Source: a virus. From it: a stretch of 50,276 bases of DNA. Position numbers and translations under genes: made by a program. The stretch spans positions 1 to 50,276 of the IMG/VR virus record IMGVR_UViG_3300047201_000026; one strand, 5' to 3'. Positions 24,156-50,153 of this stretch are shown piece after piece. The stretch's first letter is position 1; the number at the start of each line of letters is the position of its first letter. The notes beneath the pieces are model-generated. The model was not told where the DNA came from, did not search any database, and worked only from the letters and a program-made list of their open reading frames with translations.

Positions 24156-25051
24156 GCAGATTGGATAAGATTATTGTTGCCGTATGGTTAGTTTGCGTTA
24201 TAGCCATAGCAGGCAACATCTATTCGGCAACTAACTTTCCGACTACGTTGGATTCATGGACGGATCAGACAGCGGCAGACCTGATTACATCGGCCAAGTG
24301 GAATAAGTTGCAGGATGCAATTGGGGCACTTGAAGTCAAGGTAGGCGCTGATTCATCTGCTGTGACTACAACCATAGACCACAAGTTGACAGATGAAATA
24401 GCCGCTACTGCAAACTTGCGTTCCACATTGGGGGTTAGTCCAATGCCGGATTGGGTACGAACCATTGCCGTCAATGCTCATAGTTCCGGGGTTTCCAAGG
24501 CCGATCTTGTCAGGTTAAATGCTACTACATCATCTGCCGCAGAATTGAATGTATTGGATGGGGTTACTGTAACATCCGCACAAATTAATAATGCAGCCAC
24601 ACGGCCACGGGGTGCATTGGTATATAAAGCAAATGCAGACGATCAAAATATAACAAATGGTGCTTTAGCTGATTTAACATTTTCTTCTGAAGTATATGAT
24701 ACTGATAGCATTCATAGTACAGTTACAAATACAGAGAGGTTAACCGTACCAGCGGGTGTAACTTATATTAAATTGCATGGTTACATTTATCTTAATAGAT
24801 CATCTGGTTCGGGAATTGTCTATGCATTGCCATTATATAAAAATGGAGCTTTATATAAAGATATTAATTATGTTTATACTGAGGGTGCCGATTATCATGG
24901 CATGATGTTTAATACGGATATTTTGTCGGTTACCAGTGCGGATTATTTTACTATTCATCCGGCCAATTATTCAGGGGCGACTGTCACAATTCAAGGATCG
25001 GATACAGACAATGTATATCGATCTTCATTTGAAATGGAAATCATTTCTTAG
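24152..25051 (+). CDS. Signal-peptide-bearing fibre protein with jelly-roll C-terminus
   Basis: A hydrophobic N-terminus (MSRLDKIIVAVWLVCVIAIAG..., about 6-22, cleavage probably after SA near 27) precedes the fibre-type motif DSWTDQTAADLITSAKWNKL. AAELNVLDGVTVTSAQIN follows, as in phage fibres. The C-terminal 130 residues resemble a C1q/TNF-like jelly roll. The signal peptide is unusual for a virion fibre. Confidence 0.7.
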   Translation: MSRLDKIIVAVWLVCVIAIAGNIYSATNFPTTLDSWTDQTAADLITSAKWNKLQDAIGALEVKVGADSSAVTTTIDHKLTDEIAATANLRSTLGVSPMPDWVRTIAVNAHSSGVSKADLVRLNATTSSAAELNVLDGVTVTSAQINNAATRPRGALVYKANADDQNITNGALADLTFSSEVYDTDSIHSTVTNTERLTVPAGVTYIKLHGYIYLNRSSGSGIVYALPLYKNGALYKDINYVYTEGADYHGMMFNTDILSVTSADYFTIHPANYSGATVTIQGSDTDNVYRSSFEMEIIS

Positions 25052-27520: not shown

Positions 27521-30500
27521 TTGGAAAATATCATTTGGGACGAACCCATGGGTAATACATCACAGAAACAAACCAGCCATGGTTTGGAGAATATCATTTG
27601 GGAGAAACCGACCCAATCTATACCAGAATCCATGAAGGATTGGTCTGCCAAGGATGAAGCTGAATTTCGGGCATGGTATAAACCAATTGCCAAACAAATG
27701 GGATTAGATACCAATCCTGATAATCCCTTGCATTATTATGATTACAGGGCAGCATATAAAGCAGGTGCAACTCCAGATGAAACTGGACATTGGCCTTCTG
27801 AGTTTAAAAAGGAAGGTCATCCGCGAATGATCGTAGATGGAATAAATACTAAGACGGGAGAAGTTGCAAATTGGACTGATACTATGGTTTCCCGTGCCAA
27901 GAAGATTCCTGGTTATACGATGGAAGAACTAAAAGATATTGGCAAGGAATTAAGTACAGTATGGGGCAATATTGGTTTTGAGGGTAAGGATGAAGAGGAA
28001 TTTGCCGGTCCCTTGGCTTCTGCCATAGGTGTACCCGTGGAAGTATTAAGATTGGGATTCACAGCATTACGTACCGCATTTGCACCAGTTAATGCATATT
28101 CACGTGCTATGTTTGAAGAACCATATACTGATTTGCTTGTGAAGCATGGCATGGATAAACGGTATGCTCAGGCCATAGCAAGAACCTATGCTTTTCTTCC
28201 CTACATTATGCAACCTGAAATGATGGGTGGCCGTACCGCCATGGCTGGTGTTAAGCGTACTCCCGGTTTTACAGCGGCAGAAGAATCCGGTAAGTATGCG
28301 GGGGTAAAAGCAAAACCACGTACCCTTGAAAGACAACGACAGGAACTACTCGATACATTGCAAAGTACCGTAGGCCAACGCAAGTGGGATGAGATGGAAC
28401 GATCAGCGGCAATTCAACGCAGAGCGGAACATGCCGAAGCTCGTTCTGATATAGGCGGGGAACAATTACGTGCAAAATTAACAGAGGAAGAAAAATTAAG
28501 TAATATTATTCCACCTGAAGAACCAACAATACCATATCAATATGAAGGTATATCCGAAAATATAATCTGGGAAGAACCAACCACGGGTAAACCTATTGTA
28601 CAACCAGAGATTGCGAAACAATCAGTGGGAGCAGAATTGAATAAGCCCCCCAATGTTCACGAAAATCTATTGTTCAAAAAAAATGAACGGTTACAAAATG
28701 TGAACAAACCAATCCCCGCAGAACCCGTTGTGCCGCCTACATCTATGAAACCCCCGGAAGTCACCCCGCAAGTAACCCCGGAAGTGGTGAAGCCTACTGC
28801 CGGTGGCAAACCGACAACCGATATTGGTGCCGAAGTAAACCCTGAAGTTTCTATCAAGGAACCTACTCGCGTAGCTAGAAAAGTTGGATTAAAACGTCCC
28901 AAACTAAAGATGAATATTATTGCTCCTGAAATTCCCGAAGCTATTGATAAGGCCATACCCAATGCTTTGGATGTATCCGCTGAACATTTAAAACAGATTA
29001 ATGATGTGAATACAAATCCCTACAGTACGGTAAATGGGCGTGAATTATTAAAAGAACTCAAGGATACTTACGGCGTTGTTAATATTAAATCCCCTTCTGG
29101 TAAGTTCAACTTTGACATAATTAATACCAAATATCATCTTGAAAACTTCAGAAATAATATAGCGGCACAACAGGGCAAACGTGGTGGGATAACCCTTAAC
29201 ATGGGCTTGGGTGGCGCACAACCGCTTCTTGATAAAGCCACCAAAAGAGTGGCAGAACAAGTAGAAGATTGGAAGCTCAAGAGTAAGATACCATTTGTCA
29301 CACATCGGGAACCACCGGTAAAAATCGACAATCCCCAATTTGCATTATCTGCCGATGAAGCACTTGGCAAACAGATGGATACATTGGGTATCAAAGGTGA
29401 AAGGCGTACTGCATTAATGGGTAATCTATTTGGCAACCTTGGTATCAATTCACAAGATTATGCTCTCAATAAACTCAGTAATAATCAAAAGGTTGCGTTA
29501 CGTAATTTCCTACAAAATGCAGATACAGATGTATATGGCAAGGCTGTTCTTGCAGATATAGCGGATAACCGTGGTGTGATGCTAGATCCTAAGTTTGTAG
29601 ACAATGTCGAGAGTTTGCGGGATTTGCCAAAGGGTTCGGGGGAAAGCATTGAGATATTCCGCGCCGCACCCTATGTTGATCCAACAATGACATTGTGGAA
29701 GAAAACTGGTGCGCCATATGAAACTGCCAATCATCTTATACGTGAAGAGAAGAAAGCAAAAGAAATGGTTATTAGCAAGTTGCTTCCGGGTATACGAGAA
29801 GGTTCCAAATTAAGTTCAATGTTGCAGAATTTTATAGAAAAAAAGTTGCCATTGGAGCAAGTGCCACAACGATACAGGCAAATGTTTGCCAAAGCAGATC
29901 AGCACTTCAGGGCGGAATATGACGACCTTTTAGGTCGAATCAATGAAGCCCGCGCTATGGTTAATAAGGCACCCATCAATCGGCGCGATGACTATTTTAC
30001 CCATACGCAACAGTTGGGCATATTGAGTTTGATGCATGGTGGTCTTGATAGAATACCCAATGAAGTATTAAAGATCATAGAAAAGACCCATGCCATTGCG
30101 CCACGATTCAAATACGAAGAGCGCCTTGGTGCAGAATATGTATCTGATGCTGTGGGCAACTACTTTAAGTATTTGAACAATGCATTAAATGTAATACATT
30201 TCACGCCCGTTATGGTGGAAGCCAAGGCATATGTACGACATTTGCCGCCACGGGCGTTCAAGTATTTTTCAACATGGATGGATGAAACATTGGCTGGCAG
30301 AAAATCTCATTGGGATCGCGGCATGGAAGAATCATTCCGTTATGGTGAGCAAGCCTTAAAAACATGGTCATGGATTAGAAGACGCACAGTTGCTAATATT
30401 ATTAGATTTTCTGCGCGTATGGTTGTTCAGCAACCATCTAGTTATGCCCTGACATTCAATGGATTGGCAACTGGACCGGCACGTGGAGTTGCCGATGTTG

Positions 30501-31477
30501 CCATGAATGTTACAGACGCCATTGCACCATTATTTACCTATTGGACAAAAGAAGGTAGGGCACTCACAGAACTTTCACCGGAGATGCAAAATAGAGCATG
30601 GGTGGAACATATAGATCCCACCACCCTAAATAAGTTGGACAGGGCATTGGATTATATGAATGCTCACGCGGATAGAATGCAGGTTGGTTTTTCTTTCCTT
30701 GGCAAGTATCGACAGTTAGTGCGACAGGGAGGTATGTCATTTGAAGATATGGTGATGCAAGCCGATTTATTTGCCAAGAGAACACAGGCTAGTTATCAAA
30801 AGGGCATGTTGCCACCTATATTACGTTCTGAATTGGGTAAGAACATATTGCCATTGCAGACTTTTACATTCAATGCCATGCATCAGATGGGTTGGGATGT
30901 AAAACGAATTATAGCAGAACGTGGCAAAGCGGCAGCTTTTGCATACGGACTTGGTGCATATGCTTCAATGGTAGCAATCAATCAGGTATATGCTACTTTA
31001 CATATGGCACCCACTTGGGATTTTATGTCGTTCATTCCGGGATTGGGTTATATAAAATATGGTGCTCCTTCGGGTATAAATTTTATGTATTCTTTGTTGA
31101 AATATTGGACGGGTGATGAATCAGATAAAAGTATGAAAAAGATTTTGACTAGGATGGCATATCAGATTATACCGCCGTTTGGTGGCGAACAGATACGCAA
31201 GAGCATTGATGGTTATTTAACAGCAAGCAAACCAGGCCATAAACCATATAGGTTGAGGGATGATGTAGACAGGGTTTGTGCTATTTTGTTCGGGCCGTCA
31301 TCCACTATGGCCGGTAGGGAATATTTTAACAAACGTGATAAAGCATTATATAATCGGGCATGGCAAAAATTAAAGAAGTATGCCAATGCCGAACAAGAAG
31401 GTGGATTAGAAACAGGCACAGTAGAGCAGGGTGAAATGAGTACAGGTGAATTGACAACCGGTACTCTAGGGCAGTAG
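27521..31477 (+). CDS. Giant internal virion (ejection) protein
   Basis: A 1318-residue protein starting at TTG directly after the upstream TAA, with AAGGA upstream. Near the N-terminus the motif ENIIW(D/E)xP occurs at about 2-9, 23-30 and again near 345-352. This resembles the short repeated motifs seen at the start of large ejection proteins. A YDYRAAYKAGATPDETGHWP segment (about 68-90), frequent in phage virion proteins, follows. The last 500 residues are helical, with ARMVVQQPSSY and large-polyvalent-protein features. It probably enters the host during DNA ejection. Confidence 0.7.
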   Translation: MENIIWDEPMGNTSQKQTSHGLENIIWEKPTQSIPESMKDWSAKDEAEFRAWYKPIAKQMGLDTNPDNPLHYYDYRAAYKAGATPDETGHWPSEFKKEGHPRMIVDGINTKTGEVANWTDTMVSRAKKIPGYTMEELKDIGKELSTVWGNIGFEGKDEEEFAGPLASAIGVPVEVLRLGFTALRTAFAPVNAYSRAMFEEPYTDLLVKHGMDKRYAQAIARTYAFLPYIMQPEMMGGRTAMAGVKRTPGFTAAEESGKYAGVKAKPRTLERQRQELLDTLQSTVGQRKWDEMERSAAIQRRAEHAEARSDIGGEQLRAKLTEEEKLSNIIPPEEPTIPYQYEGISENIIWEEPTTGKPIVQPEIAKQSVGAELNKPPNVHENLLFKKNERLQNVNKPIPAEPVVPPTSMKPPEVTPQVTPEVVKPTAGGKPTTDIGAEVNPEVSIKEPTRVARKVGLKRPKLKMNIIAPEIPEAIDKAIPNALDVSAEHLKQINDVNTNPYSTVNGRELLKELKDTYGVVNIKSPSGKFNFDIINTKYHLENFRNNIAAQQGKRGGITLNMGLGGAQPLLDKATKRVAEQVEDWKLKSKIPFVTHREPPVKIDNPQFALSADEALGKQMDTLGIKGERRTALMGNLFGNLGINSQDYALNKLSNNQKVALRNFLQNADTDVYGKAVLADIADNRGVMLDPKFVDNVESLRDLPKGSGESIEIFRAAPYVDPTMTLWKKTGAPYETANHLIREEKKAKEMVISKLLPGIREGSKLSSMLQNFIEKKLPLEQVPQRYRQMFAKADQHFRAEYDDLLGRINEARAMVNKAPINRRDDYFTHTQQLGILSLMHGGLDRIPNEVLKIIEKTHAIAPRFKYEERLGAEYVSDAVGNYFKYLNNALNVIHFTPVMVEAKAYVRHLPPRAFKYFSTWMDETLAGRKSHWDRGMEESFRYGEQALKTWSWIRRRTVANIIRFSARMVVQQPSSYALTFNGLATGPARGVADVAMNVTDAIAPLFTYWTKEGRALTELSPEMQNRAWVEHIDPTTLNKLDRALDYMNAHADRMQVGFSFLGKYRQLVRQGGMSFEDMVMQADLFAKRTQASYQKGMLPPILRSELGKNILPLQTFTFNAMHQMGWDVKRIIAERGKAAAFAYGLGAYASMVAINQVYATLHMAPTWDFMSFIPGLGYIKYGAPSGINFMYSLLKYWTGDESDKSMKKILTRMAYQIIPPFGGEQIRKSIDGYLTASKPGHKPYRLRDDVDRVCAILFGPSSTMAGREYFNKRDKALYNRAWQKLKKYANAEQEGGLETGTVEQGEMSTGELTTGTLGQ

Positions 31478-31494: not shown

Positions 31495-31899
31495 ATGATG
31501 AGAAATTTTATAGTGTGCATCTTGGCAATTTTCGTAATCGGGTTCGGGCAGTACGCATATGCATTACAGAAGCAGAATGCGGCTGCACCGGGTACGGTAT
31601 TGGATTCGGCAACCGAGCAGACTACATCTGTACTTATGAAGGGTGTGTTTGCCATAGAGGTTACCTCAACCGGGGTGGGGACATTAAGTATCTATCGCAG
31701 CGAAGCAAACTCTGCGGCAGTTACCGGAACCGATTGGGTGAAGGTTAAGACCATTACCAATGCATCGGCAGGCGATAAACGCATATATATGTATGAATCT
31801 TTTGGTGATGCCTTTGGCGATGCCTCGCCAGGTGCATGGTATGTGGTGTACCTAACGACATTGACTTCCGGTTCCTATAGGGTGAGGTTGGTGAGATGA
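31495..31899 (+). CDS. Exported small beta protein
   Basis: A Sec signal peptide (about 1-23, MRNFIVCILAIFVIGFGQYAYA) precedes a single small beta domain (about 30-134) with a Ser/Thr-rich surface, ending LVR. It is the first of seven consecutive exported proteins. GAGGGG precedes two adjacent ATGs. The stop overlaps the next ATG (ATGA). Confidence 0.72.
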   Translation: MMRNFIVCILAIFVIGFGQYAYALQKQNAAAPGTVLDSATEQTTSVLMKGVFAIEVTSTGVGTLSIYRSEANSAAVTGTDWVKVKTITNASAGDKRIYMYESFGDAFGDASPGAWYVVYLTTLTSGSYRVRLVR

Positions 31900-34800
31900 A
31901 CGCATTATTTAAACAACTTTGGATTAGCATAGCAATCCTATTAATTGCAGGAGTATGCTATGCGGGGGGTATACCCTATACGGGGGATGTGGGTGCATCT
32001 GATGTAACCACCGATACAACGAATTTTAATAGCAACCTATCCAGCCTGGATACCGATCTTCAAAAGTGTCTGGAAACCTTAGATGAGATTCTTGGCGGTG
32101 CTGCATCAAGCATGGCATTCTCAGGATTGACTACACAAACCAATACTGCCGCTACCATGACTGTAGGTACAGGTGCAACATTAACCTATTCGGGTACTGG
32201 TATAATCAATGCAACACGGTTCTTGGGTGTTACGAGTGTTGATGCTACCGAGTTCGCGTATCTCAATGGGGTTACATCGGCCATACAGACACAACTGGAT
32301 GCCAAACAAACATCCGATGGTGAACTATCCGCAATAGCCGGATTGACCTCCGCCGCCAATAAGGTTCCCTATTTCACTGGTTCGGGTACCGCAGGTTTAT
32401 TGGATGCCGGTGCCAAGGGTAAGAATATTTTAGCAATAGATACTTTTGCACACTTACAGTCCAGCATGGGTGTAGCGTCATCGGGTGCCAATACCGACAT
32501 TACCAGCCTTGGGGGAATTACTACCCCATTCACCATTGCCCAGGGTGGTACAAATTCCGGGACTGCTCTAACAAATAATAGGGTTATGGTTTCATCCGGT
32601 GGTGCTATTGTGGTAGCACCGGTTATTACGGCGGCCAGGGTTTTGATCAGTGACGCCAATGGTATACCTTCTAGTTCATCGATTACATCAACCACGTTGG
32701 TTTTTCTTGATGCAACAAGCTCTGTACAGGGGCAACTTGATGCGAAACAGGGTCTTGATGCAGACTTAACAGCATTGGGTGGTATATCCGGGGTACGTGG
32801 CGATATAATCTATTACGGTGCATCTGGCTGGACCAGACTAGCAAAGAGTTCCAATGCTGGTTATATTTTAACACAGGGTGCCAATGATCCGGGGTGGGCT
32901 GCGGCTGGTGCCGGTGCCGGTAATGTAGTAGGTCCAACATCAGATCCGGGTATGTTGCACCATCTTGCCACATATGGCAATACCACTGGTTTATTGTTGG
33001 AAAATGTTTATAGTCTGGTTACTACAGTTGCCAATCCTGGATTAGATACAACCATTCCCACCGAAGCGGCAGTGCGTGCAGCAATATCCGCATCTGGTGG
33101 TGGTACATTCAGTGGACCGGGTTCTTCTACGGATAATGCAGTTGTGCGGTTTAATGGTACGGGTGGTGCAACCGGACAAGATTCTTACATGACCGTTGAT
33201 GATAGTGGTTCTGTCAATATACCAACCGGGCAACATTATAAGATTAATAATACGAATATTACTTATACTGATGTTGCGGCACTTCCATCTGGTTCGGGAG
33301 TATTAACATCTGCGGCACTTGCTACTGCCTTGTCAAATGAAACCGGTTCGGGTGTTGTAGTTTTTAACACATCGGGAACCCTGATTACCCCCAATATAGG
33401 TGCAGCTACCGCTACATCTATCAACAAAGTTGCCATAACCGCACCCGCAACATCGGCAACGCTTACACTTGCCAATGGCAGTTCATTGATTACAGTAGGT
33501 GCTTATGCGACCACCCTTACAGCATCAGCCACTACGGCATTAACTCTTCCAACTGCTGGTACACTTGCAACTACCAGCAATCTTCTTAGTGATTTCGGCA
33601 ACACCACATCGGCGCAACTCCAGGGTGTAATTACCAATGAAACAGGTGGCGGAGGGGGCGCGGGTTATTTGGTATTCTCCAGTTCACCGGCTTTAACTAC
33701 TCCCGATATTGGTGTAGCCACGGCTACATCTGTAAACAAAGTTACAATAACAGCACCGGCATCTTCGGCCACATTGACTTTGGCTAATGGTAGTTCCCTT
33801 ATAACCGTTGGTGGTTATTCTACGACTTTGACAGCATCGGGTACAACGGCTATCACGTTGCCGACTACCGGGACACTGGCTACTACAAGCAACAAGTTAA
33901 ATGCTTTTGCGGCCACATCATCTGCCGAATTGGCGGGCAATATCTCTGATGAAACTGGTTCCGGTCTACTTACATTTGCCACATCTCCGGTATTAACCAC
34001 ACCCAACATTGGTGTTGCAACAGCCACTAGCGTAAACAAGATGTCAATTACGGCACCTACTACTTCTTCTACACTTGCAGTAGCGGATGGCAAAACATTT
34101 ACAGTTTCCAATACACTTACTCTTGTTGGTACAGATTCAACCGTGATGACATTCCCAACCACGACCCAGACCATACCGGGTCTTGCACAGGCCAATACCT
34201 TTACGGGTAATATTTCATTGGGCGATGCCGATACCGATACATTCACGGTTCGCTCTATGATTCTTGGTGGCAATTCCAGAGAAGTACAGATTAATGCTGG
34301 TACGAGAACATCACCTAGCCATGTAAGTGGTACACCCACGCAAGATTTATATGTTGCAGGCAACATTGAAACACCCAATGATCTTTATGTAAAAACTTTG
34401 ACTAATAGTAAAACCAGTGGACAATCTGGTGTACTGCTTCTCTATAGCAAACCGGGAACAAGTACATTGGGTACTGGATTTGCAGGACCGATTACTACAC
34501 CCGCTGCATCGATTTACTTGCGGTTGCCCCCCGATGCTCCTACCAATGGATATACCCTTGTGGCGGGGAGCATTGATACGGATGGTTACTATCCACTTTC
34601 ATGGTCTGCTCCCGGTGGTGCAGTAGGGTTCAATGCAATTACAGCAGGCAATAACAATACCGGTCAATCACTGCAAGTTGGTACTACATCTACCCTTACA
34701 CCAACGGGTTCCGGTATTATTGCTGCCAATAGACTGGGAACTGTTGGAACAGATATGGTTACCGATAGTGCGGGCAACAACATTTTCAAAATTGTTCCAA

Positions 34801-36569
34801 TCGCCAGTGCAGTTGATTATTTTTCGTTTACCAATGCTGCCACAGCGGGTACGGGAATTGTTACCTTGGCAGCAGATGGATCAGATACTAATGTACGACT
34901 TGCCCTTGGTGGCAAGGGTTCCGGTGGTATTAGGCTTGGCGATGTATCCAATAACCTACTTATCAGTTCGGCGGGTGGAATGACCATGACGGGTACGGGA
35001 TCTATTACCGGGGGCGATGACAATTTAATTGCAGGCGGTATAACATTTGATTCTACTCCTGGAGCGGCAGGTGACATGGGATATGCTTCCAACCAGTTTT
35101 TATTCCATACCGCGTCTCTTGTTCCGGCTACTTCTGATGGCGGCGCGCTTGGTTCAGCATCCCTTATGTGGGGTGACTTATTCCTTGCATCTGGTGGCGT
35201 GATTAATTTCAATAACGGTAATGTAACCCTTACTCATGCGGCTGGTGTTCTTACAGATAATGGTAACTTCGCAGCACAAAATCTTATTCAAGGATATACC
35301 ACTACAGCCACAGCAGCCGGTTCGACAACCTTAACGGTTGCTTCTGCTAATCAGCAATACTTTACGGGTTCATTGGCGCAGACAGTTGTTATGCCAGTGG
35401 CAACAACCCTAGTAAATGGTCAACGGTGGATGATAATTAATAATTCATCGGGAACCGTGACAGTGCAAACCTCTGGTGGTAATACGATTCAAGCAATGGC
35501 GGCAAATACGCAATTGCTGGTTGCTTGTATCAATACTGCCGGTGGTACAGGTACAGCATCATGGAGTTGGACATATTCATATCTGAACGGCAATGCGGCA
35601 GGGTTAAGCGCGGCGGCCCTTGGGACTCAAAATACCTGGACAGGGGCACAGACTTTTACATCTGATGATATCCTGATTGCAGGCGGCATTACATTTGATG
35701 CGACCCCTGGTGTATCGGGTGATCTTGGTTATGCTTCTAATGTTTTCACTCTTATGGCGGGGGCAACATCAGAAACTTTAACAATCACTGGTGGATCTGA
35801 TTCATTTACTTTTGCCAGCGGAACAGGAGCGACATTTACATTTACACCCAATACAACCATTACAGGTACGCTGAGTGCGGGTGCAGCAGGAATGACAGTG
35901 GATGCCGATGGTGATACGGTCGCGAAGACGCTTACTACTACCAAATCAAGCGGCGTAGCGGGAACCCTTAAACTTTACTGTACAAATGGTACAGATGTAA
36001 CCGGCCCGGTTCTTACCGGTCCAGCAACAGCGGCAGTCGATTATAATGTTATATTCCCAATTGCCGCTGCGGGTGGTTCAGGCTATCTTATATCCGTCAA
36101 TGCGGCGGGTCAGTTAGCATATACACCCAACTTTGCATATGTATCTACCACGGGTGGCTATGACAATACAAACCATTCGTACAGAGGCCAAACCATTACA
36201 GTAGAGGCGGGTGAAACTCTTGCATTTGGTGATCTTGTTTACATTACCAATACAGTGGGTGCAGCACCGGTTGTTAATAAAGCGGATGCGGATGGGGCGG
36301 CCACTTGTGGTTCGCTACTTCTTATTGTTGATGCCGCAGGTATAGCCAATAATGCTGTTGGAAATGCACTTGTGCGGGGTACTGCTTATCATACCGATTG
36401 GACTATGACACGTGGACAGGTACAATATGTTGGACTTACGGCGGGGGCTATAGTTAATACTACATCGGGATATGCCAACCCGGATATTATACAAAAGGTG
36501 GGCTATGCCTTGCACCCTGATATATTATTGTTTGAACCGAGCATTGACTATGCTGTGGTGGCCCCATAA
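31896..36569 (+). CDS. Giant exported fibre- or adhesin-like repeat protein
   Basis: A 1557-residue protein with a signal peptide (about 1-23, ...IAGVCYAGG). The body is Thr/Gly/Ser/Ala-rich beta repeats. Units containing ATATSVNKV and GTLATTSN recur in the middle (see 33399-34180). AQLQ-ITNET, SPALTTPDI and fibre-like strands follow. The C-terminal domain (about 1420-1557) has YVSTTGGYDN...ETLAFGDLVYITNT and ends in IDYAVVAP, likely a trimeric adhesin cap. Sequence alone would suggest a tail fibre; the signal peptide suggests secretion. Confidence 0.72.
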   Translation: MNALFKQLWISIAILLIAGVCYAGGIPYTGDVGASDVTTDTTNFNSNLSSLDTDLQKCLETLDEILGGAASSMAFSGLTTQTNTAATMTVGTGATLTYSGTGIINATRFLGVTSVDATEFAYLNGVTSAIQTQLDAKQTSDGELSAIAGLTSAANKVPYFTGSGTAGLLDAGAKGKNILAIDTFAHLQSSMGVASSGANTDITSLGGITTPFTIAQGGTNSGTALTNNRVMVSSGGAIVVAPVITAARVLISDANGIPSSSSITSTTLVFLDATSSVQGQLDAKQGLDADLTALGGISGVRGDIIYYGASGWTRLAKSSNAGYILTQGANDPGWAAAGAGAGNVVGPTSDPGMLHHLATYGNTTGLLLENVYSLVTTVANPGLDTTIPTEAAVRAAISASGGGTFSGPGSSTDNAVVRFNGTGGATGQDSYMTVDDSGSVNIPTGQHYKINNTNITYTDVAALPSGSGVLTSAALATALSNETGSGVVVFNTSGTLITPNIGAATATSINKVAITAPATSATLTLANGSSLITVGAYATTLTASATTALTLPTAGTLATTSNLLSDFGNTTSAQLQGVITNETGGGGGAGYLVFSSSPALTTPDIGVATATSVNKVTITAPASSATLTLANGSSLITVGGYSTTLTASGTTAITLPTTGTLATTSNKLNAFAATSSAELAGNISDETGSGLLTFATSPVLTTPNIGVATATSVNKMSITAPTTSSTLAVADGKTFTVSNTLTLVGTDSTVMTFPTTTQTIPGLAQANTFTGNISLGDADTDTFTVRSMILGGNSREVQINAGTRTSPSHVSGTPTQDLYVAGNIETPNDLYVKTLTNSKTSGQSGVLLLYSKPGTSTLGTGFAGPITTPAASIYLRLPPDAPTNGYTLVAGSIDTDGYYPLSWSAPGGAVGFNAITAGNNNTGQSLQVGTTSTLTPTGSGIIAANRLGTVGTDMVTDSAGNNIFKIVPIASAVDYFSFTNAATAGTGIVTLAADGSDTNVRLALGGKGSGGIRLGDVSNNLLISSAGGMTMTGTGSITGGDDNLIAGGITFDSTPGAAGDMGYASNQFLFHTASLVPATSDGGALGSASLMWGDLFLASGGVINFNNGNVTLTHAAGVLTDNGNFAAQNLIQGYTTTATAAGSTTLTVASANQQYFTGSLAQTVVMPVATTLVNGQRWMIINNSSGTVTVQTSGGNTIQAMAANTQLLVACINTAGGTGTASWSWTYSYLNGNAAGLSAAALGTQNTWTGAQTFTSDDILIAGGITFDATPGVSGDLGYASNVFTLMAGATSETLTITGGSDSFTFASGTGATFTFTPNTTITGTLSAGAAGMTVDADGDTVAKTLTTTKSSGVAGTLKLYCTNGTDVTGPVLTGPATAAVDYNVIFPIAAAGGSGYLISVNAAGQLAYTPNFAYVSTTGGYDNTNHSYRGQTITVEAGETLAFGDLVYITNTVGAAPVVNKADADGAATCGSLLLIVDAAGIANNAVGNALVRGTAYHTDWTMTRGQVQYVGLTAGAIVNTTSGYANPDIIQKVGYALHPDILLFEPSIDYAVVAP
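33399..34180 (+). repeat. Tandem ~100-residue repeats within fibre gene
   Basis: Three units, starting near 33399, 33710 and 34012, encode GAATATS/GVATATS followed by NKV, an LTLANGSSLITVG core (divergent in unit 3) and LPTTGTLATTSN. The first two have near-equal length and high protein similarity, yet diverge at the DNA level. Such fibre repeats set shaft length. Confidence 0.7.
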
Positions 36570-36579
36570 GGAGATGGAT

Positions 36580-37752
36580 ATGAGAAAATATATATTAATT
36601 ATAATCTTATTGGCGTGTTCTACGGCATTGGTTGCTGCGGGTATATCATCGTGGAATGAAGAAACCATCAACCCTACTACGGTAGGAGGTACAAGCGTGA
36701 CAGCCAGTGCTGCACGTATCCTCGCCAATGATTATGCTGGTATGCGTACCACGATGGGTGTGCAGACATATGACGCTGACCTTGCCACTTATGCAGGCAT
36801 CACACCTTCCGCTGTTGCTCAGAGATTGCTCTTACTGAACTTTGCCCAGATACTAACCTCTACTGGTGCACAGGCCGCCGATGCGGATTTGACTACTTAC
36901 GCGGGCATAACACCTTCAGCAAGCGCACAGCGTTTATTGCTATTGTCTTTCGCGCAGATACTTACATCTACGGGTGCTCAACCATTAGATACCGACCTCT
37001 CAACCTACTCGGGCATTACCCCCTCCGCCAACGCGCAACGCCTGCTCCTGCTCACCTTTGCCCAACTTGCAACTACCCTTGGACCTGCTTTTGACTTTGC
37101 CCTTACCGCCGATGCCGATGCGGGAGACTACGACATCTTGAGCATTGACAAGTTGGAGGGCGTGGACGCCACCGAGTACATCGATATGGGTGGCGATGGG
37201 TATGTGGATATCTATGCGGGCACATCTATACGGGCGGTGACAGGGACTCTTGCTGTAACGGGCGCGGTGACTGTATCTGCTGGATTGACAGCCAATGGTG
37301 CAGCAACCATAGGAGACGGCGGGGATGCAATCAACGTAGTAGAATATATGGTTACGGCTAATACCACCTATAGTGGAACATTGCAGTATTATACTACGTC
37401 AAGTGGTATAACCCCGCATGTATTTGGACAACCTGTACACATTACCTCAGTCAGTAAAGTAAATGCAGCCAATGCTACCGCAGCCACCACTTCACCGGCA
37501 ATAGGTGTTTTGATAGATCATGCGGATAATACGGCCAATCAACGTGTTCTGGTGCATGGAATTATAGCAAATACTGCTTGGACTTGGACGCCCGGAGCAA
37601 TTCTTTATCTACAAGATACACCGGCAACAACAAATGGGTTTAGAGAAACAGCTCCGTCAACGACTGGACATCAAGTACAAATTATGGGTATGGCTATTTC
37701 GGCTACACAAATCTTTGTCAACCCACAGCTGATACTTATAGAGATTAAATAA
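36580..37752 (+). CDS. Exported repeat protein with fibre-cap-like C-terminus
   Basis: A 390-residue protein with start at 36580 (AAGGAG 7 bases upstream). The signal peptide is about 1-20 (MRKYILIIILLACSTALVAAG). LLAC resembles a lipobox, but the Cys follows only 11 residues. Three 36-residue repeats occupy about 65-168. The C-terminal part ends in IFVNPQLILIEIK and resembles the end of the preceding protein. Confidence 0.72.
   Translation: MRKYILIIILLACSTALVAAGISSWNEETINPTTVGGTSVTASAARILANDYAGMRTTMGVQTYDADLATYAGITPSAVAQRLLLLNFAQILTSTGAQAADADLTTYAGITPSASAQRLLLLSFAQILTSTGAQPLDTDLSTYSGITPSANAQRLLLLTFAQLATTLGPAFDFALTADADAGDYDILSIDKLEGVDATEYIDMGGDGYVDIYAGTSIRAVTGTLAVTGAVTVSAGLTANGAATIGDGGDAINVVEYMVTANTTYSGTLQYYTTSSGITPHVFGQPVHITSVSKVNAANATAATTSPAIGVLIDHADNTANQRVLVHGIIANTAWTWTPGAILYLQDTPATTNGFRETAPSTTGHQVQIMGMAISATQIFVNPQLILIEIK
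36772..37083 (+). repeat. Three 36-residue repeats (108-bp period)
   Basis: Units start at 36772, 36880 and 36988, each encoding DADLATYAGITPS or a close variant, then AQRLLLL and FAQIL (FAQLA in the third). Period is exactly 108 bases. Protein identity is high while codons differ strongly, with the third unit GC-rich, for example CTGCTCCTGCTC for LLLL against TTATTGCTATTG in the second. Confidence 0.85.
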
Positions 37753-37753
37753 T

Positions 37754-40114
37754 ATGCGTAAGATACTTATATTCATCTTACTGTTTTTGGGGATAGCCTC
37801 TTCCTCCTGGGCTACCGGCTGGTCGTCCATGGGGATAGTATATACTACAACACAGGATGACTTTGTGCATGGAGCTGTCTGGGATACCACGGGGTATTCA
37901 TTCATGGTATCCATCAGGCGTACTCCCGGTTATGGCAATGGGGATCAGATGTCTATCATTAGAACCACCACAGCCGGTGCCAATGAAGGTGCATCCACGG
38001 CATTACAATATACGGTGGCCGGTAGTGGGGAAACCAAAGAACAGATCCAGGGTGTAGCTTATAATGCACTTGTGGATAATGCCAATATCTATGTCTTTTA
38101 TGATGTGGGGGGGGATGTTACCATGACCCCGCATATTGCCAAGTTTGCCAAGACGCTTGCCAATACAGCTGGTGTAAGTGCGGTTAAGTTTGAAAATGCA
38201 GTACTTGAGCCAGCCCCAGTATACTCTCAAAATGGTATGCTGACTTGGAATGCATACAGTACAGCTGGTATCTATCATGTGGGGGGAACGATATTACCCG
38301 GACTTATCATATGGTGGAACCAGCTTGACTTGTCGGCAGATAGACATTCGACCCCGCGCAGGTGGCGTATAGCTGGCAGCAATACTGCGGGTATGGCTAT
38401 AGGTACAGGAGTTATGCGCCGATCCCCAACCCATGTGACAGACCATGGGGCATTATTCTATTGTCCCGGTGTGGGTAGACGGGGAGATCCCAATAGTTCC
38501 CGTGCGCCTGTATTGGAACGTGTTTATCAGGATCAAGATGGAAATAGTTTATCCAATCTGGTTGGCAGTGATGGTGTAGCATTTTATCCCAATGTAGCTG
38601 TAAGTTCACAACCACTATGGCAAAGCGATGGAACTATAGATATCAATGCGGGGTTGTATGACCTTGCTTTTGATAGTAACTCGTCTGGTGTAGCTTGGGC
38701 TTGCGGTTCTATACCCAGATTTGGTATGGTTGGGGAGGCAGGAGAGGGCTCGGATGGATTTATAGCCAAGCTGAGCATCTCTGGTGCATTGAATATCACC
38801 AAGATATACAGGTTCAGTATTCCACAGGATAAAGAATACGGTCTGCGGTTTTCCAACATTGAAGAAGATGCCAATCATCTATATGTATCCTCCACTTATC
38901 TCAAGCACGTCAACCTGGGTGATAATACCGAGTATCAAAAACCACACAGCCTGATGGTTATGAAGATACATAAAGCAAATGGCGCAACTTCAATTGATCC
39001 CCTAACGATAGAATGGGCATTGCGATATAATAGTCCGGGATTAAGCAATCAAGTCGCTTCTGCTATTGGTGGTGGAGGATTGAAACTGCATGTGGCAACA
39101 TCCACTTTATATGTCTTTGGTGACACGAATCTATATGGAACGTATTTAACACGAGATCCTACGGAAAACAATCCATTCCTAATTAAACTCAATATAGATC
39201 CCACCACGCCGACAACCAACAAATCAGATACTACAGGTTTATTCAAACAGTATGACATATCCGGCAGTGTTACTATAACCGATATTACCACTGCCATGAC
39301 AATTGAAACCGACAAATGTACACTTGTTGAAGAAGCGGCTGCACAAACCACAGATGCCAAATCATTTACCGCAGATACTTGGGCAAACAAGAAAGTGATA
39401 ATGAATCAATCTACCCTATATTATACCAGTTATCCGGTGGCAGATGTTGCTACGGATGCTTATGTTACTCCCCGTATTAATGGCACAACCGCTGGTACAG
39501 CCACAGCCATGTGGGAAACCTGCACCAATGTTGGAGATCATGTTGACGAATATCTTGGTGTTGGTCATGCGTTGGGACAGGCAAACAGATCGGGAATAAC
39601 TACGTTTACCCTTACTCCGCAAGTTAATATCGCTGCGGCCATTACAAATGTTACAGCTTATGCAAAAATAGATCATGTTAAGGGTTCTGGTAATGATGCT
39701 GGATTTTATTGGAGGTGGCGACCGGGCAGCAGTGGTTCATATTATGATAGTGAAGCGTCCGCACTTACTGGAAGTATAGTTGATCCACCAAGCACTTCAC
39801 AAACAGGGGGTACTATTAATAATACCTATAATCCCAACACCAATGATTATTGGCATTGGTCTGAAACTGATACCACTATAGCAGGCATAGAACTTCATAC
39901 TGCTGGAATAGTATATGAAGCAGTCGGTTGCAATGAATATACACTTGTATGGACATATGAAATGCGTCCCGATCCCTGCTCGATTAAAATAGCAGGCGTT
40001 GAACAACCAAGAAAGATGGGTGGTGCTACTTTATATGATCCCACTGGTACGACAGGCGGGCATACAGCAAACAAGGTCGGTGGCGTCAACTGGTGGATGT
40101 ATCCCGATGATTAA
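37754..40114 (+). CDS. Large exported propeller- or adhesin-like protein
   Basis: A 786-residue protein with a Sec signal peptide (about 1-21, MRKILIFILLFLGIASSSWA). The N-terminal two-thirds consist of beta strands with repeated Gly/Asp/Thr loops that look like a beta-propeller. The C-terminal third (about 500-786) is a second beta domain rich in Thr/Asp. Adjacent genes overlap or abut. A host-surface or cell-surface binding protein is likely; no family recognised. Confidence 0.65.
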   Translation: MRKILIFILLFLGIASSSWATGWSSMGIVYTTTQDDFVHGAVWDTTGYSFMVSIRRTPGYGNGDQMSIIRTTTAGANEGASTALQYTVAGSGETKEQIQGVAYNALVDNANIYVFYDVGGDVTMTPHIAKFAKTLANTAGVSAVKFENAVLEPAPVYSQNGMLTWNAYSTAGIYHVGGTILPGLIIWWNQLDLSADRHSTPRRWRIAGSNTAGMAIGTGVMRRSPTHVTDHGALFYCPGVGRRGDPNSSRAPVLERVYQDQDGNSLSNLVGSDGVAFYPNVAVSSQPLWQSDGTIDINAGLYDLAFDSNSSGVAWACGSIPRFGMVGEAGEGSDGFIAKLSISGALNITKIYRFSIPQDKEYGLRFSNIEEDANHLYVSSTYLKHVNLGDNTEYQKPHSLMVMKIHKANGATSIDPLTIEWALRYNSPGLSNQVASAIGGGGLKLHVATSTLYVFGDTNLYGTYLTRDPTENNPFLIKLNIDPTTPTTNKSDTTGLFKQYDISGSVTITDITTAMTIETDKCTLVEEAAAQTTDAKSFTADTWANKKVIMNQSTLYYTSYPVADVATDAYVTPRINGTTAGTATAMWETCTNVGDHVDEYLGVGHALGQANRSGITTFTLTPQVNIAAAITNVTAYAKIDHVKGSGNDAGFYWRWRPGSSGSYYDSEASALTGSIVDPPSTSQTGGTINNTYNPNTNDYWHWSETDTTIAGIELHTAGIVYEAVGCNEYTLVWTYEMRPDPCSIKIAGVEQPRKMGGATLYDPTGTTGGHTANKVGGVNWWMYPDD

Positions 40115-40129
40115 CCCAGGGAGGTGCAT

Positions 40130-40846
40130 ATGCGTAGACTGATTGTATTGTTAACCATCCTGACCATACCGCTCTTCTTGCAAGCCTCCGTGGTGGGCAG
40201 CGGGGTGGTGGTGGGCAGTGGGGTGACTATGGTGGCACCTACTATAACTTATGCGGATTATACTGATAATTTCGCTTCTGATTCTGGCTACTGGACTACA
40301 AGAGCCGGGACATGGACAATAGGCAGTGGCGTTATGACAGGGTCGACAATAGGTGGGGCAAAATCTCAAGTTAATTATACCAGGGCTTCGGCTACTGTAA
40401 GTCAATATATTTCTGCCATGAGCGCCTGCGCCAATGCTGAGTATCCACAGCTTTGCTTTAGGAGAACTGGGGTAACAGGAGAAAAATATTACAAGGTAGC
40501 ATTTCATCAGGGATATAGTGCCGTCTCCTGGTACTGGGGAACAGATGATGCCGGTCTTGGAGATGAGGAAATAGCAAATAGTAACTTGTCGCACATTTTT
40601 GAACAGAACGATTATGTTGGAGCGGACGTTATTGGAATTGGCGCGAGTACGGTCGTTAGAGTTTGGTGGTGGGATTCGACTACTCCACCAGGCGCATATA
40701 GCACTTGGGGTACGCCTGATGTGACTTTTACAACCGATCCCGGCACTGGCGATAATTGCGACACCGGTCTGTATTTTGGGTTGGCTACATATAATGAAGC
40801 GGCAACTTGGTCATGGGATAACTTTACAGCTGGAGATGCGCGGTGA
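40130..40846 (+). CDS. Exported jelly-roll-like protein
   Basis: A 238-residue protein with a signal peptide (MRRLIVLLTILTIPLFLQA, about 1-19), a Val/Gly/Ser linker and a LamG/concanavalin-like beta-sandwich core (YTDNFASDSGYWTTR ... DNCDTGLYFGLATYNEAATWSW). Start 40130 is preferred over GTG 40124; GGGAGG lies 5 bases upstream. The C-terminus overlaps the next gene's GTG as GTGA. Probably carbohydrate-binding. Confidence 0.68.
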   Translation: MRRLIVLLTILTIPLFLQASVVGSGVVVGSGVTMVAPTITYADYTDNFASDSGYWTTRAGTWTIGSGVMTGSTIGGAKSQVNYTRASATVSQYISAMSACANAEYPQLCFRRTGVTGEKYYKVAFHQGYSAVSWYWGTDDAGLGDEEIANSNLSHIFEQNDYVGADVIGIGASTVVRVWWWDSTTPPGAYSTWGTPDVTFTTDPGTGDNCDTGLYFGLATYNEAATWSWDNFTAGDAR

Positions 40847-42255
40847 AGAAATTATTCAGTCTAATCATTCTCCTTTTGTTTTCCACTACCCTGTGGTCTG
40901 CCCCTGCCGTTACCGGCGTTAGTGGCACTGTTACCCACGGGCAGAGTATTACCGTAACCGGCTCAGGATTTGGAACAAAGTCTACGGCTGCACCCAACCT
41001 CTGGGATACGGTGGACAACCAAACCTCCTATGGGACGATTGTTGAAGGGGCGACCGTCCCTAATGGCAGTAGTTATCCGTGGCATGCCGCAGCTTCATGT
41101 GATGGATCATGTTCTTTATTCAGTATAACTTCTGGCGAGCAGAGGAGTACACATTCAACTGCTTGCTATCATAACCACAATTCTTATTATAATTTAATGG
41201 ATGGAAGGGATGTTACCGCCAACTATGTTTATCTGTCTTGGTGGTTTAAAACAAATCAAAATCTTGCATCTGCGGGAAGTAACAAGTTTTTAAGAATGAA
41301 TCAAGGCGGGGATGGTGATATAACCAATACACTCACTTGGGCACAATTGGGTACTGATGATGTCTCTTATGTTTATCGTACCGGATGTAGTGCATGTACT
41401 GGAGGCGGACATGCTGATTATTGTGGATGTGACCAATGTAGTGGAAGTACCTGTACAGTTTATGATGGTAGTGCCCCCTCTGCAAATACATGGCATTTCT
41501 TTGAAGCATGGTTTGATAATACAGGATCAAGAAAATGGCATCTTCGCATAGACAATTCTGCCTGTGCCGATGCGACCTTTACGGAAACAGGAATTTATTT
41601 TAATTATGTTTGGAAAATTGGCATGGATGCTGGAGGTTCACCAGCTCTCGCCCAAACCTCATTCCTCGATGATATCTATGTAGATACCGCCTGGTCGCGG
41701 GTACTTATCGGCGATGCCTCCACCTATGCGAACTGCACCCATTTCGAGATGCAACCGCCGACTGTATGGAACGCCAACGGGCAGTCCATTGCAGTGACTG
41801 TCAACCAGGGTTCATTGCCAAGTTCACCCACGAAAAGCTATGTCTATGTAGTGGCTTCTGACGGATCATATAATGCCAGTGGTTATGAAGTTGCCTTCGG
41901 CGATGGCGGCGGCGATACCACGCCCGATCAGTTCACCTTCACGGATATAACCGGAGCCGCGCGCTCGACCGTCTATACCTCCAACCAGATCACCGTGGCC
42001 GGGATAGATGCCACAGCCGATGTAACCATCACCGGCGGCACCTATAGCAAGAACGGCGGGGCATATACGGCCAATGCGGGTACCTGTGTAGTGGGCGATA
42101 CCTTCACCGTACGGCAGACATCGAGCGCGTCCTATTCGACCACAACCAATGCCATCCTCACCATTGGCGGGGTGAGCGATACCTATTCTGTAACCACTGG
42201 AGCACAAACACCTGTTATATCAGGATGTACTATATCAGGTGGTTCCGTCCAGTGA
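40843..42255 (+). CDS. Exported IPT/TIG-domain adhesin
   Basis: A 470-residue protein with GTG start overlapping the upstream stop. Signal peptide is about 1-19 (MKKLFSLIILLLFSTTLWS). An IPT/TIG-like domain follows (VTGVSGTVTHGQSITVTGSGFG), then a Cys-rich central LamG-like part (about 155-215, with CxxC and CDQC), and an Ig-like C-terminal half that is markedly more GC-rich than the centre. It ends in GCTISGGSVQ. Confidence 0.7.
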   Translation: MKKLFSLIILLLFSTTLWSAPAVTGVSGTVTHGQSITVTGSGFGTKSTAAPNLWDTVDNQTSYGTIVEGATVPNGSSYPWHAAASCDGSCSLFSITSGEQRSTHSTACYHNHNSYYNLMDGRDVTANYVYLSWWFKTNQNLASAGSNKFLRMNQGGDGDITNTLTWAQLGTDDVSYVYRTGCSACTGGGHADYCGCDQCSGSTCTVYDGSAPSANTWHFFEAWFDNTGSRKWHLRIDNSACADATFTETGIYFNYVWKIGMDAGGSPALAQTSFLDDIYVDTAWSRVLIGDASTYANCTHFEMQPPTVWNANGQSIAVTVNQGSLPSSPTKSYVYVVASDGSYNASGYEVAFGDGGGDTTPDQFTFTDITGAARSTVYTSNQITVAGIDATADVTITGGTYSKNGGAYTANAGTCVVGDTFTVRQTSSASYSTTTNAILTIGGVSDTYSVTTGAQTPVISGCTISGGSVQ

Positions 42256-43631
42256 GGAAAGTATTTGTTATCTTATTGTTATGTCTATTACCTAGTTTGA
42301 CATGGGGGGCGACATATACCGTCTGCACGAGCGGGTGCGACGAGACCACAATCCAGGCAGTTATAAACAATCACAATCTATCTGGTGGCGATAATATCAT
42401 TGAGGTTCAGCCCAATACTCCTGGTGTACCACAGACCTTCACTTTGACCGCCGAGATCAATCTTGGGGCTAACGACAACGGGATTGCCGGTCATCCCAAT
42501 ATATTGAGGGGGCAGGCCGGTGAAACGATTATCATTGATGGGCAAGATACGGTTAGTCATATTATTAAAGCATCTGGATCTTCATATTGGCGGATAACAA
42601 ATCTTACTATCCAGGATGGTAAAGATTCTGCATTTGGCGCACAATCATCCACCACCAATACAGATATAACCTTAGATCATTTAACAATTACACGGAATGT
42701 AGGCACAAGTGTAGATTATAAAGGCTTTGATATTTCAACCAACGCTGGCCAAATCATGACCAATTTATTGATTGAAGATATATCTATTACCAATCTTTTA
42801 AGTACGGGATTTTGGTTGGCAGATTGTAACAATTTAATCATCAGACGGGTAAATATAACGAATTGTGGTACTGCCGGTTTGGTTCATTGTGCCGTATATT
42901 TAGATGATGGCACTTTAAATTTCTTAATAGAAGATGTCATAGTCACCAACTTTACTTCATCTTCTCCCGCTTTTAAATGTGCAATATCTGATGCAGCCAC
43001 GGTTGCGGGAACATTCAATCGATGTCAAGCCATAAACACGGGAACTGGTGGATTTGAAATGATTGGAGCAGCAACAGATACTTTTTATATGACAAATTGT
43101 TATGTTTATAGTGATGGAGGTATGACGAATGCCTTTAGATTTTCCACCAATTCTAATGAGTATGTATATAATTGCACAGTGGTTGGATCTTTTATAGCAT
43201 CTGTTTTCCGAATGGATGAAGCAGGAACCAGAACCGTAGTTATGAAAAATAATATATTCTCTGGTACGGCCGGATTTGTAATAAGAAGTGCTGCCGCAAC
43301 TTGTACTCTAACAAGTGATTATAATTGTTTTATCGGTGGAGGACATTTTGCTTATATGGATGCAGCAAATCATACGTGGGCAGAATGGATAGCCGCACCA
43401 CATAGTTATGATGAACATTCCCTTACATGGGGAACCGATCCCCTCCTCGCCTCCACCTACATCCTCTCCGCCAACTCCCCCTGCATTAACACTGGTGCAA
43501 CCCTGGCTGATGTAACCACCGATATCCGGGGCGTGGTAAGGCCACAAGGTGCAGCATATGACATCGGAGCATATGAATTTATAAGTGCAACCATGCAAGG
43601 CTGTGTATTATCCGGTGGTGTGTTGCATTAA
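42252..43631 (+). CDS. Exported parallel beta-helix protein
   Basis: A 459-residue protein with GTG start overlapping the upstream TGA and AGGTGG upstream. Signal peptide about 1-20 (MRKVFVILLLCLLPSLTWGA). The rest has repeated short strands with I/V-T/N ladders typical of right-handed beta-helices (pectate-lyase-like), and near the C-terminus the DIRGVVRPQGAAYDIGAYEF segment characteristic of such proteins. It ends GCVLSGGVLH. It may be a depolymerase-like or surface-binding protein; no catalytic residues could be assigned. Confidence 0.75.
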   Translation: MRKVFVILLLCLLPSLTWGATYTVCTSGCDETTIQAVINNHNLSGGDNIIEVQPNTPGVPQTFTLTAEINLGANDNGIAGHPNILRGQAGETIIIDGQDTVSHIIKASGSSYWRITNLTIQDGKDSAFGAQSSTTNTDITLDHLTITRNVGTSVDYKGFDISTNAGQIMTNLLIEDISITNLLSTGFWLADCNNLIIRRVNITNCGTAGLVHCAVYLDDGTLNFLIEDVIVTNFTSSSPAFKCAISDAATVAGTFNRCQAINTGTGGFEMIGAATDTFYMTNCYVYSDGGMTNAFRFSTNSNEYVYNCTVVGSFIASVFRMDEAGTRTVVMKNNIFSGTAGFVIRSAAATCTLTSDYNCFIGGGHFAYMDAANHTWAEWIAAPHSYDEHSLTWGTDPLLASTYILSANSPCINTGATLADVTTDIRGVVRPQGAAYDIGAYEFISATMQGCVLSGGVLH

Positions 43632-46320: not shown

Positions 46321-47223
46321 CTATTTCCCCCAATATGTCTTCCAATACAGTTTGAGCGTTTCCTTGTACTGGATTCCAGGCATAGATAATTTAAGCAATG
46401 TCAATACAACCAAACTGAATAATCCATCTGCCATAACAGCGGGCCATGGTTTATACTTCTTGGTTAGTTTGATAAAGTTGCAAGGTACATATATTGAACG
46501 CCAATTATCTTTATCCTGCTCGCGTATTGCACCCCAGAAGTTGGGCAAGTATTTTCTTAATTTATCTGTATCAATACCGGGCAATAATCTGAATATCTCT
46601 TTTTCGGGATGGTGTAAGTGGGCATTATGAACAACACGCATGCAATATCCTGCTTTCTTTGCCCGTAGACAGTAATCGTGGTCATCGTGGCCTATAAAAT
46701 AATCAGGATCATATACACCTATATCTTTTATAACATCCCGATGAATAAGTAAGCCCGATGATGGTGCCATGTCTGTAAAGTCAACCCTATATCCAACTGG
46801 ATAATAGTTTCCCCATATGCCATTCTTTTTCATGTTCTTATATATTACTTTGCCGGTATTGGGATCAGATATGACCGGCACCCTAAGCTCTGGTGAATCC
46901 CAATAGGGCATAATCATCTTCTCCAAACAATCCGGCTCCGGCCAATCATCCTCATCGTGCAACCAGACCCAGTCTGCACCGTGGTTATAGGCTTTTTTCA
47001 TTCCCCAAGCAAATCCACCTGCCGAACCCAAATTACTTTTCATAACCAACACGCATGTATTGGATATTGGAAAAGCAATATTATAGGGATTGTAAGGCAC
47101 CCCGTTATCCACGATCAAGATCCTATCCAATGGGTATGTTTGCCCGCTCAGTGCATCCAAGAGCTTCTTGAAATTGGCGGGATCAGGATAGTAGATAGGG
47201 ACTACGGCCCAGACTTTATCCAT
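46321..47223 (-). CDS. Family 2 glycosyltransferase
   Basis: A 300-residue GT-A enzyme. LIVDNG (36-41), NLGSAGGF (64-71) and HDEDDWPE (89-96, metal-binding DxD type) are followed by GHDDHDYCLRAKKAG near 197, the acid segment of rhamnosyl/galactofuranosyl transferases. It transfers a sugar from a nucleotide donor; the acceptor is unknown. It is not closely similar to the first glycosyltransferase at 20429. AAGGT lies before the ATG. Confidence 0.82.
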   Translation of the reverse strand: MDKVWAVVPIYYPDPANFKKLLDALSGQTYPLDRILIVDNGVPYNPYNIAFPISNTCVLVMKSNLGSAGGFAWGMKKAYNHGADWVWLHDEDDWPEPDCLEKMIMPYWDSPELRVPVISDPNTGKVIYKNMKKNGIWGNYYPVGYRVDFTDMAPSSGLLIHRDVIKDIGVYDPDYFIGHDDHDYCLRAKKAGYCMRVVHNAHLHHPEKEIFRLLPGIDTDKLRKYLPNFWGAIREQDKDNWRSIYVPCNFIKLTKKYKPWPAVMADGLFSLVVLTLLKLSMPGIQYKETLKLYWKTYWGK

Positions 47224-49424: not shown

Positions 49425-50153
49425 TTATTCCCTGCGTTGCTTGGGTGGATTTATTTCCTTTTTTAACTTGTGTATTTCCAGTAAATGTTCAAAAACACAC
49501 CAATATTTTAATAATTCTTTACTGGATTTGGACATAACTTCAAATTCCTTACCTTCTGTCTTGCTTATATGTAATATCTTGAAGTCGGGCCATGTAGCCA
49601 GGGTGCGCCAATCCCAATCATACATCTCGTCCATGTTCTCATAATCAAGTCGCAGTAGAGCTGCCGCCTGTATCCAGTGTTCATCATATACCCCAACGCT
49701 GGACTTCCAATCAAGAATGGTTACACGTCCATCCAACAGACACTTGATATCCCGTGTACCCCCATATCCATATATCTCGGCAACAAGGGGGCGCTCAACG
49801 TCCATAACGGTAAGATCATGCTCAGATTTCCAGAGCAGAAACTTATTAAAACAGTGCAATCCCACATCTATCTGATTGCTGCTAAAATCAGACAGATCCG
49901 GCTCTTCTTTGGCAAGGTGACAGTCAACCAGGAAATGCACCAAGCTACCAATATCTCCAGCTTCCACCAATACTTTGTTGGGATCACGTCCGGCGGTTGC
50001 CTCCTTCCGTGCCCACCCTATCAATGCACCCTTGTTCCAGCCCAGATTGTTGCCGATGATAGTAGTAACACCGTCAACAATTGATCCATCAGATAGGGAA
50101 TAAATCTGGTGTGCCTTGGTTTTATCGTATTTACGCTTTGCGTCCTTATCCAT
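49425..50153 (-). CDS. PD-(D/E)XK exonuclease
   Basis: A 242-residue nuclease of the Cas4/RecB/lambda-exonuclease-like superfamily. The catalytic pattern is visible: a Glu in VERPLVAEI, the Asp of GGTRDIKC, the LDWKSS motif (D then K two residues on) and a later Q (WIQAAAL). It probably resects DNA ends in recombination or replication. Start 50153 has GGAGG 8 bases upstream; the frame is also open from an ATG at 50168 with GGAG. Adjacent to a zinc-ribbon protein. Confidence 0.85.
   Translation of the reverse strand: MDKDAKRKYDKTKAHQIYSLSDGSIVDGVTTIIGNNLGWNKGALIGWARKEATAGRDPNKVLVEAGDIGSLVHFLVDCHLAKEEPDLSDFSSNQIDVGLHCFNKFLLWKSEHDLTVMDVERPLVAEIYGYGGTRDIKCLLDGRVTILDWKSSVGVYDEHWIQAAALLRLDYENMDEMYDWDWRTLATWPDFKILHISKTEGKEFEVMSKSSKELLKYWCVFEHLLEIHKLKKEINPPKQRRE

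Follow-up and report, generated by a model that had tools for sequence, protein, structure and literature searches.

Predicted export signals on tail-fibre-type proteins in the late operon of a podovirus-like genome

Tailed-phage morphogenesis is taught as cytoplasmic. Why, then, would seven consecutive late genes of a podovirus-like genome, together with a fibre gene upstream of them, begin with what look like Sec signal peptides? We addressed this question in a virus contig of 50276 bases (IMGVR_UViG_3300047201_000026), analysed over its whole length and referred to here as the window, which has a podovirus-like gene order. The two contig ends carry a 214-nt repeat with a single mismatch, and the genome is thus essentially complete and circular. 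The gene series runs from the terminase (11729) and portal (13088) through the major head protein (18088) to tail genes at 21448 and 22104, followed by the fibre gene 24152, small internal proteins, 27521 and then the block at 31495–43631. PHROG matches support the terminase, portal and head. The putative roles of 22104 as nozzle and 27521 as ejection protein are assigned from their place, size and conservation in G001, the closest syntenic relative found (identities of 63% for the head protein, 47% for the portal and 41% for the nozzle-like protein). The ejection-like 27521 protein lacks a signal and is not predicted to be exported.

1–214, no strand: terminal repeat copy 1, 213/214 identical to 50063–50276
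50063–50276, no strand: terminal repeat copy 2, 213/214 identical to 1–214
22104–24155, plus strand: nozzle-like tail gene, its stop overlapping the 24152 start; 41% identity to the G001 gene
24152–25051, plus strand: fibre gene behind the nozzle-like gene; predicted signal 24152–24229 (MSRLDKIIVAVWLVCVIAIAGNIYSA/TNFP), then a fibre N-terminal domain
27521–31477, plus strand: ejection-like gene (1318 aa), directly before the block and in the same place as a 1801-aa G001 gene

An alignment of the major head protein matched only G001, which indicates few close relatives among the sequences searched. Scans of viral contigs with the single proteins 27521, 22104 and 31896 as queries gave no hits; alignments did give matches. 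A terminase scan of genome contigs for a host returned six distant loci from different phyla and pointed to no host, and no tRNA genes were found in the window. Beside the major head protein lie two tandem duplicated gene pairs (16997–18073 and 19009–20217, with 63% and 64% identity within pairs). Two genes that read as glycosyltransferase-like from their sequence (20429–21484 and 46321–47223), one of them within the head-tail region, match a single 605-aa gene located at the same place in G001. Near the terminase, several phages of the window's terminase group also encode GroEL/Cpn60-type chaperonins; these genes are annotated in L002 (6021–7646) and L007 (9945–11387) and were seen by eye upstream of the terminase in G004 and G010.

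The signal-bearing block and its proteins

The block comprises seven consecutive plus-strand ORFs within the late operon, with intergenic gaps of 17, -4, 10, 1, 15, -4 and -4 nt from the end of 27521 onwards.

31495–31899, plus strand: 134-aa orphan, predicted to be exported; signal 31495–31563 (QYAYA/LQKQ); no confident family match
31896–36569, plus strand: 1557-aa fibre; predicted signal 31896–31964 (VCYA/GGIP)
36580–37752, plus strand: 390-aa fibre-like repeat protein; predicted signal 36580–36639 (LVAA/GISS); match to phrog_12121 (unknown function) at 1.1e-5
37754–40114, plus strand: 786-aa orphan, predicted to be exported; signal 37754–37813 (SSWA/TGWS)
40130–40846, plus strand: 238-aa orphan, predicted to be exported; signal 40130–40186 (FLQA/SVVG)
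40843–42255, plus strand: 470-aa protein, predicted to be exported; signal about 40843–40902; 13 Cys in the mature part
42252–43631, plus strand: 459-aa right-handed beta-helix; predicted signal about 42252–42305; 13 Cys in the mature part

Signals were called by a custom rule, not SignalP, which demands a basic n-region, a hydrophobic core of 8–16 residues and small residues at -3/-1. We wrote both the rule and its cut-off, and the signal prediction rests on this one heuristic; as a control, ten textbook E. coli signal peptides were put to it, and 10/10 pass. A sequence-only reading of this DNA had described such N-termini on all seven block genes and on the 24152 fibre-like protein, and the rule agrees throughout, passing 7/7 block genes as well as 24152 and 10251. 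For the background, hits were counted at internal Met positions (9/3238, or 0.28%), at the starts of genes of at least 100 aa in 25 comparison phages (29/829, or 3.5%, a figure that includes true signals) and among other window genes (3/38). With the most lenient of these rates, 7/7 would pass by chance with a probability of 2e-8. The longest run of passing genes is eight in the window, counting the opposite-strand neighbour 43788, and at most two in any comparison genome. As predicted by the rule, the block signals are not a chance pattern. All eight proteins show the n-, h- and c-regions of Sec (SPI) signals with small -3/-1 residues, most weakly in 24152 and 42252.

Some starts and cleavage sites involved a choice. 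Tandem ATGs occur at 31495 and 31498, the 36580 start is the signal-peptide ATG within a longer ORF, and 40130 was started at its ATG, the longest ORF beginning at GTG 40124. For 31896 the top-scoring cleavage site of the script was residue 34, and residue 23 was our choice. A lipoprotein assignment of 36580 (LLAC) was rejected, as the hydrophobic stretch does not stop at the Cys but leads on to VAA, a better site. Upstream of the block by ~140 nt, within the end of 27521, lies an 11/12 sigma-70-like promoter (TTAACA-17-TATAAT, 31326–31354); promoter and terminator matches in the block showed no excess over shuffles. Outside the fibre block, the gene at 10251–10583 near a DUF5675 gene encodes a small signal-bearing protein, and its G001 homologue (34%, terminase +38069) is also signal-bearing.

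The bodies of these proteins had been read as fibre shafts, LamG/IPT domains and a beta-helix. Fibre and beta-helix stood: 31896 matches the virion structural protein family phrog_6002 over three stretches (1.1e-28) with a shaft that matches phage fibres, and 42252 matches PF13229 (8.6e-9) and the choice-of-anchor Q domain NF041518 (2.5e-14). LamG and IPT domains found no confirmation in Pfam or NCBIfam. The 40843 protein matches a short-tail-fibre PHROG weakly (2.2e-5) and cyanophage fibres in part. Fibre homology is clear in 24152 and 31896 and weak in 40843 and 36580; none was seen in 31495, 37754 and 40130. No relatives of 37754 were found in phages or the PDB, PDB sequence searches gave noise only, and an AlphaFold2 model of 40130, made without relatives (pLDDT 31), was too poor for a fold search. 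Pfam and NCBIfam gave no outer-membrane beta-barrel match for any of the eight proteins, and their mature parts contain no recognisable membrane or wall anchor.

The choice-of-anchor domain of 42252 is followed by 16 residues ending GCVLSGGVLH, with no match to a recognised sorting signal. This end (43599–43631) shares the C-terminal peptide G-C-x-[IL]-S-G-G with that of 40843 (42223–42255, GCTISGGSVQ); the two coding sequences differ at third positions, and among the loci compared the peptide ends no further ORF. The peptide could serve in sorting or docking. The mature parts of the same two proteins contain 2.9% Cys, against 0.66% in signal-less virion-type proteins, a richness that suits oxidative folding and that the other six do not share.

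A signal joined to a fibre domain and the recurrence of the trait

The ATG of 24152 overlaps the stop of 22104, and no start codon lies at the junction of signal and domain. From about residue 26, the protein matches the N-terminus of a G001 protein (MSTNFPTSLDS; G001 residues 2–56) with 45% identity over the domain. The fibre-like genes of G001 have no signals. In 80/80 viral contigs (the best 80 of 382 matches) the TNFPTSLDS... domain likewise lacks a signal and starts from its own Met; these are not 80 independent cases, since many of the contigs are related. Given these signal-less carriers, the lack of a junction start and the ATG overlap, the signal of 24152 is best explained as an addition ahead of a standard fibre domain; signal loss in all other carriers would be the less simple alternative. 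The predicted cleavage site is weak (YSA, with Y at -3). For the TNFP domain, AlphaFold2 gave mostly one helix at pLDDT 57, a model of insufficient quality for a fold search.

Signals had been called unusual on virion fibres, and the fibre-shaft sample bears this out. It consists of 74 ORFs with an intact 5' end among the 80 best matches to residues 30–138 of 31896 and, like our other viral contig samples, is redundant. At most 3/74 carry a signal: 71 are signal-less, L264 and L288 are signal-bearing, and L240, the best match, has a signal only with an alternative start. Signal-bearing fibres are also carried by G031 and G032, and at L288 (G032) two adjacent signal-bearing fibre-type genes (755 and 980 aa) lie behind a structural gene.

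Further podoviruses show the trait on a gene at the corresponding place. In a second lineage (G004, G010, G013, G014, G033, G034, G035 and the L238 record), 8/8 phages encode, immediately after the nozzle gene, a fibre whose N-terminus includes a hydrophobic segment. In one of these fibres, L234 from G033, the C-terminal part is a tail-collar domain (phrog_9116, 9e-35), so that it is of a genuine tail-fibre type. Among three fibres of this lineage the N-terminal segments are 26–43% identical and the domain behind them 62–83%; this faster divergence is typical of signal sequences. Several segments show no clear cleavage site, so anchors are possible there, and L238 fails the rule entirely. In G010, G013, G014, G033, G034 and G035, one or two small proteins with an N-terminal hydrophobic helix are encoded directly behind the major head protein (for example L128, L232–L237 and L325–L330). 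Signal positives in G002 and G015 were set aside; they represent one gene in two near-identical records, with what looks like a wrong start.

Within the window, a composition-based fibre test gave 6/12 for fibre-like and 3/27 for other genes (p=0.014); the corresponding figures for G004/G010/G013/G014 were 12/17 and 8/94. The p-values are descriptive only, as these four genomes were picked after their signals had been seen and the cut-offs were set by us. Judged from these predictions, the trait is uncommon but recurrent. No earlier report of signal-bearing tail fibres was found in the open-licence papers searched.

Candidate fates of the proteins predicted to be exported

We propose, at a probability of roughly 0.4, that the eight proteins are Sec-exported tail appendages that join the particles at or after lysis. 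The fibres are probably routed through the host membrane and not built onto particles inside the cell. On this view, the block and 24152 would supply the phage with fibres, spikes and adhesins for its own tail, synthesised late as Sec pre-proteins that the host Sec machinery would export and signal peptidase would trim. The mature proteins would fold in the periplasm or outside, with disulfides possible in 40843 and 42252, and their freed N-terminal domains would dock onto the tail when particles meet fibres at or after lysis. Some of the exported proteins may act on the surface of the infected cell in the meantime. The signal of 24152 ends where the domain of the 80/80 contigs and G001 begins, so processing would yield the usual fibre N-terminus. 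The low background rate of such signals, the tight packing of the genes within the late operon, the recurrence in the second lineage and in G031 and G032, and the faster divergence of the N-terminal segments also speak for this reading.

A podovirus needs a receptor-binding protein, and no tail fibre or spike without a signal was recognised in the complete genome, a result that concerns recognition only, as a divergent receptor-binding protein could escape. Since no other fibre was recognised and a receptor-binding protein is required, tail appendages are the simplest reading of the signal-bearing proteins. Several points weigh against it. Capsids and tails of tailed phages assemble in the cytoplasm, so exported fibres must find the particles after lysis, and we know of no precedent for exported tailed-phage fibres joining virions. 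By sequence, 42252 and the orphans could pass for bacterial surface proteins as readily as for fibres, and only 2/8 of the proteins are Cys-rich. The wider proposal, in which tail building is divided between two compartments in several unrelated podovirus lineages, with a cytoplasmic capsid and nozzle and with Sec-exported fibres that fold in the envelope and are fitted at or after lysis, is tentative, and we consider it rather doubtful.

It is possible instead that the exported fibre-derived proteins stay on or around the infected cell and are not virion parts. Roles in receptor masking (superinfection exclusion), in binding debris or neighbours or in building a matrix are nearly as likely as the tail-appendage reading. 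Display or secretion explains the signals equally well with no new assembly route, and the choice-of-anchor domain of 42252 is typical of bacterial surface proteins; however, it leaves a complete genome with no identified receptor-binding protein, and the mature parts have no recognised membrane or wall anchor. Display is also disfavoured by the signal-bearing fibre that follows the nozzle gene in two lineages, since virion fibres are usually encoded there. Precedents for display are lambda Lom (PMC12309495) and, as a prediction, P1312 ORF22 (PMC4569894), signal-bearing proteins whose genes lie among structural or late genes.

An unlikely option is a mixed set, in which 24152, 31896 and 36580 are virion fibres and 42252, 40843, 40130, 37754 and 31495 are host-like surface proteins on the infected cell; that these five were acquired together with their own signals is equally unlikely. 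The restriction of clear phage-fibre homology to 31896 and 24152 and the bacterial surface-protein domain of 42252 would fit such a division, but the signals on the fibres themselves stay unexplained, all eight genes share a single late operon, and no donor among bacteria was identified for the block.

That the hydrophobic N-terminus is an uncleaved anchor, fixing the fibre in the tail or membrane, is improbable. Of the models put forward in the sequence-only reading, the two that involve export, later attachment to virions and display on the infected cell, gained support alike from the signals on real tail-type fibres, and the anchor fits the window less well, because the hydrophobic cores are short and peptidase-like sites follow them (AYA, SWA, VAA, CYA). 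The n-regions are also basic, and a virion anchor needs none of these features; moreover, in 80/80 contigs the fibre domain of 24152 needs no such segment to attach. Evidence in favour of an anchor comes from the second-lineage segments without a peptidase site, including L238, which fails the rule, and from the weak 24152 site. Finally, wrong starts or chance hydrophobic N-termini are very improbable even with a rule and cut-off of our own making, given that only 0.28% of internal Met positions pass, that the starts overlap or abut upstream stops and that 24152 has no alternative start near its domain.

If some lineages do route fibres through Sec, then tail completion takes place outside the cytoplasm or infected cells are coated with the phage's own receptor-binding-type proteins, and either outcome, if true, would change the understanding of host range and superinfection exclusion. 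Pairs with and without a signal (24152 against G001 and the 80 contigs) provide a ready comparison for testing fibre export. Annotation pipelines may label such fibre genes as bacterial adhesins.

Comparison with known systems

The fibres with the TNFPTSLDS... domain (L146–L225 and G001) share the N-terminal domain of 24152, and the G001 homologue likewise lies directly behind a nozzle-like gene; the difference is the signal before the domain, present only in 24152 and not in the 80 sampled contigs or G001. The second podovirus lineage resembles the window in the fibre position behind the nozzle, in having several signal-bearing fibre-like genes per genome and, for G004/G010/G013/G014, in a related terminase, but its fibre domains are others and its segments are often anchor-like with an unclear cleavage site. 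The three-stretch match (1.1e-28) places 31896 close to phrog_6002, whereas the 31896-like phage proteins compared (from Synechococcus, Pelagibacter and Sinorhizobium phages; MW202483) begin without a signal.

Lambda Lom is a signal-bearing protein encoded among tail genes (PMC12309495). It is a single outer-membrane beta-barrel, in contrast to eight fibre-, helix- or orphan-type proteins without a barrel match. ORF22 of Thermobifida phage P1312 is a large protein with a predicted N-terminal signal, predicted to be secreted (PMC4569894), but it is a single metallophosphatase gene with a carbohydrate-binding module and not a fibre. The choice-of-anchor Q surface proteins (NF041518) are like 42252 in its combination of signal, beta-helix and choice-of-anchor domain; 42252 differs in lacking a recognised C-terminal anchor, in ending with a short GCxxSGG peptide and in its location in a phage late operon.

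Virion tail fibres themselves are homologous to 24152 and 31896, and all eight genes are encoded among late tail genes. The present proteins differ in the signal-like N-termini on all eight, a signal-less start being a general property of virion fibres and not a strict criterion. Tail fibres are of a known kind, and what is new here is the predicted export signals on tail-fibre-type proteins.
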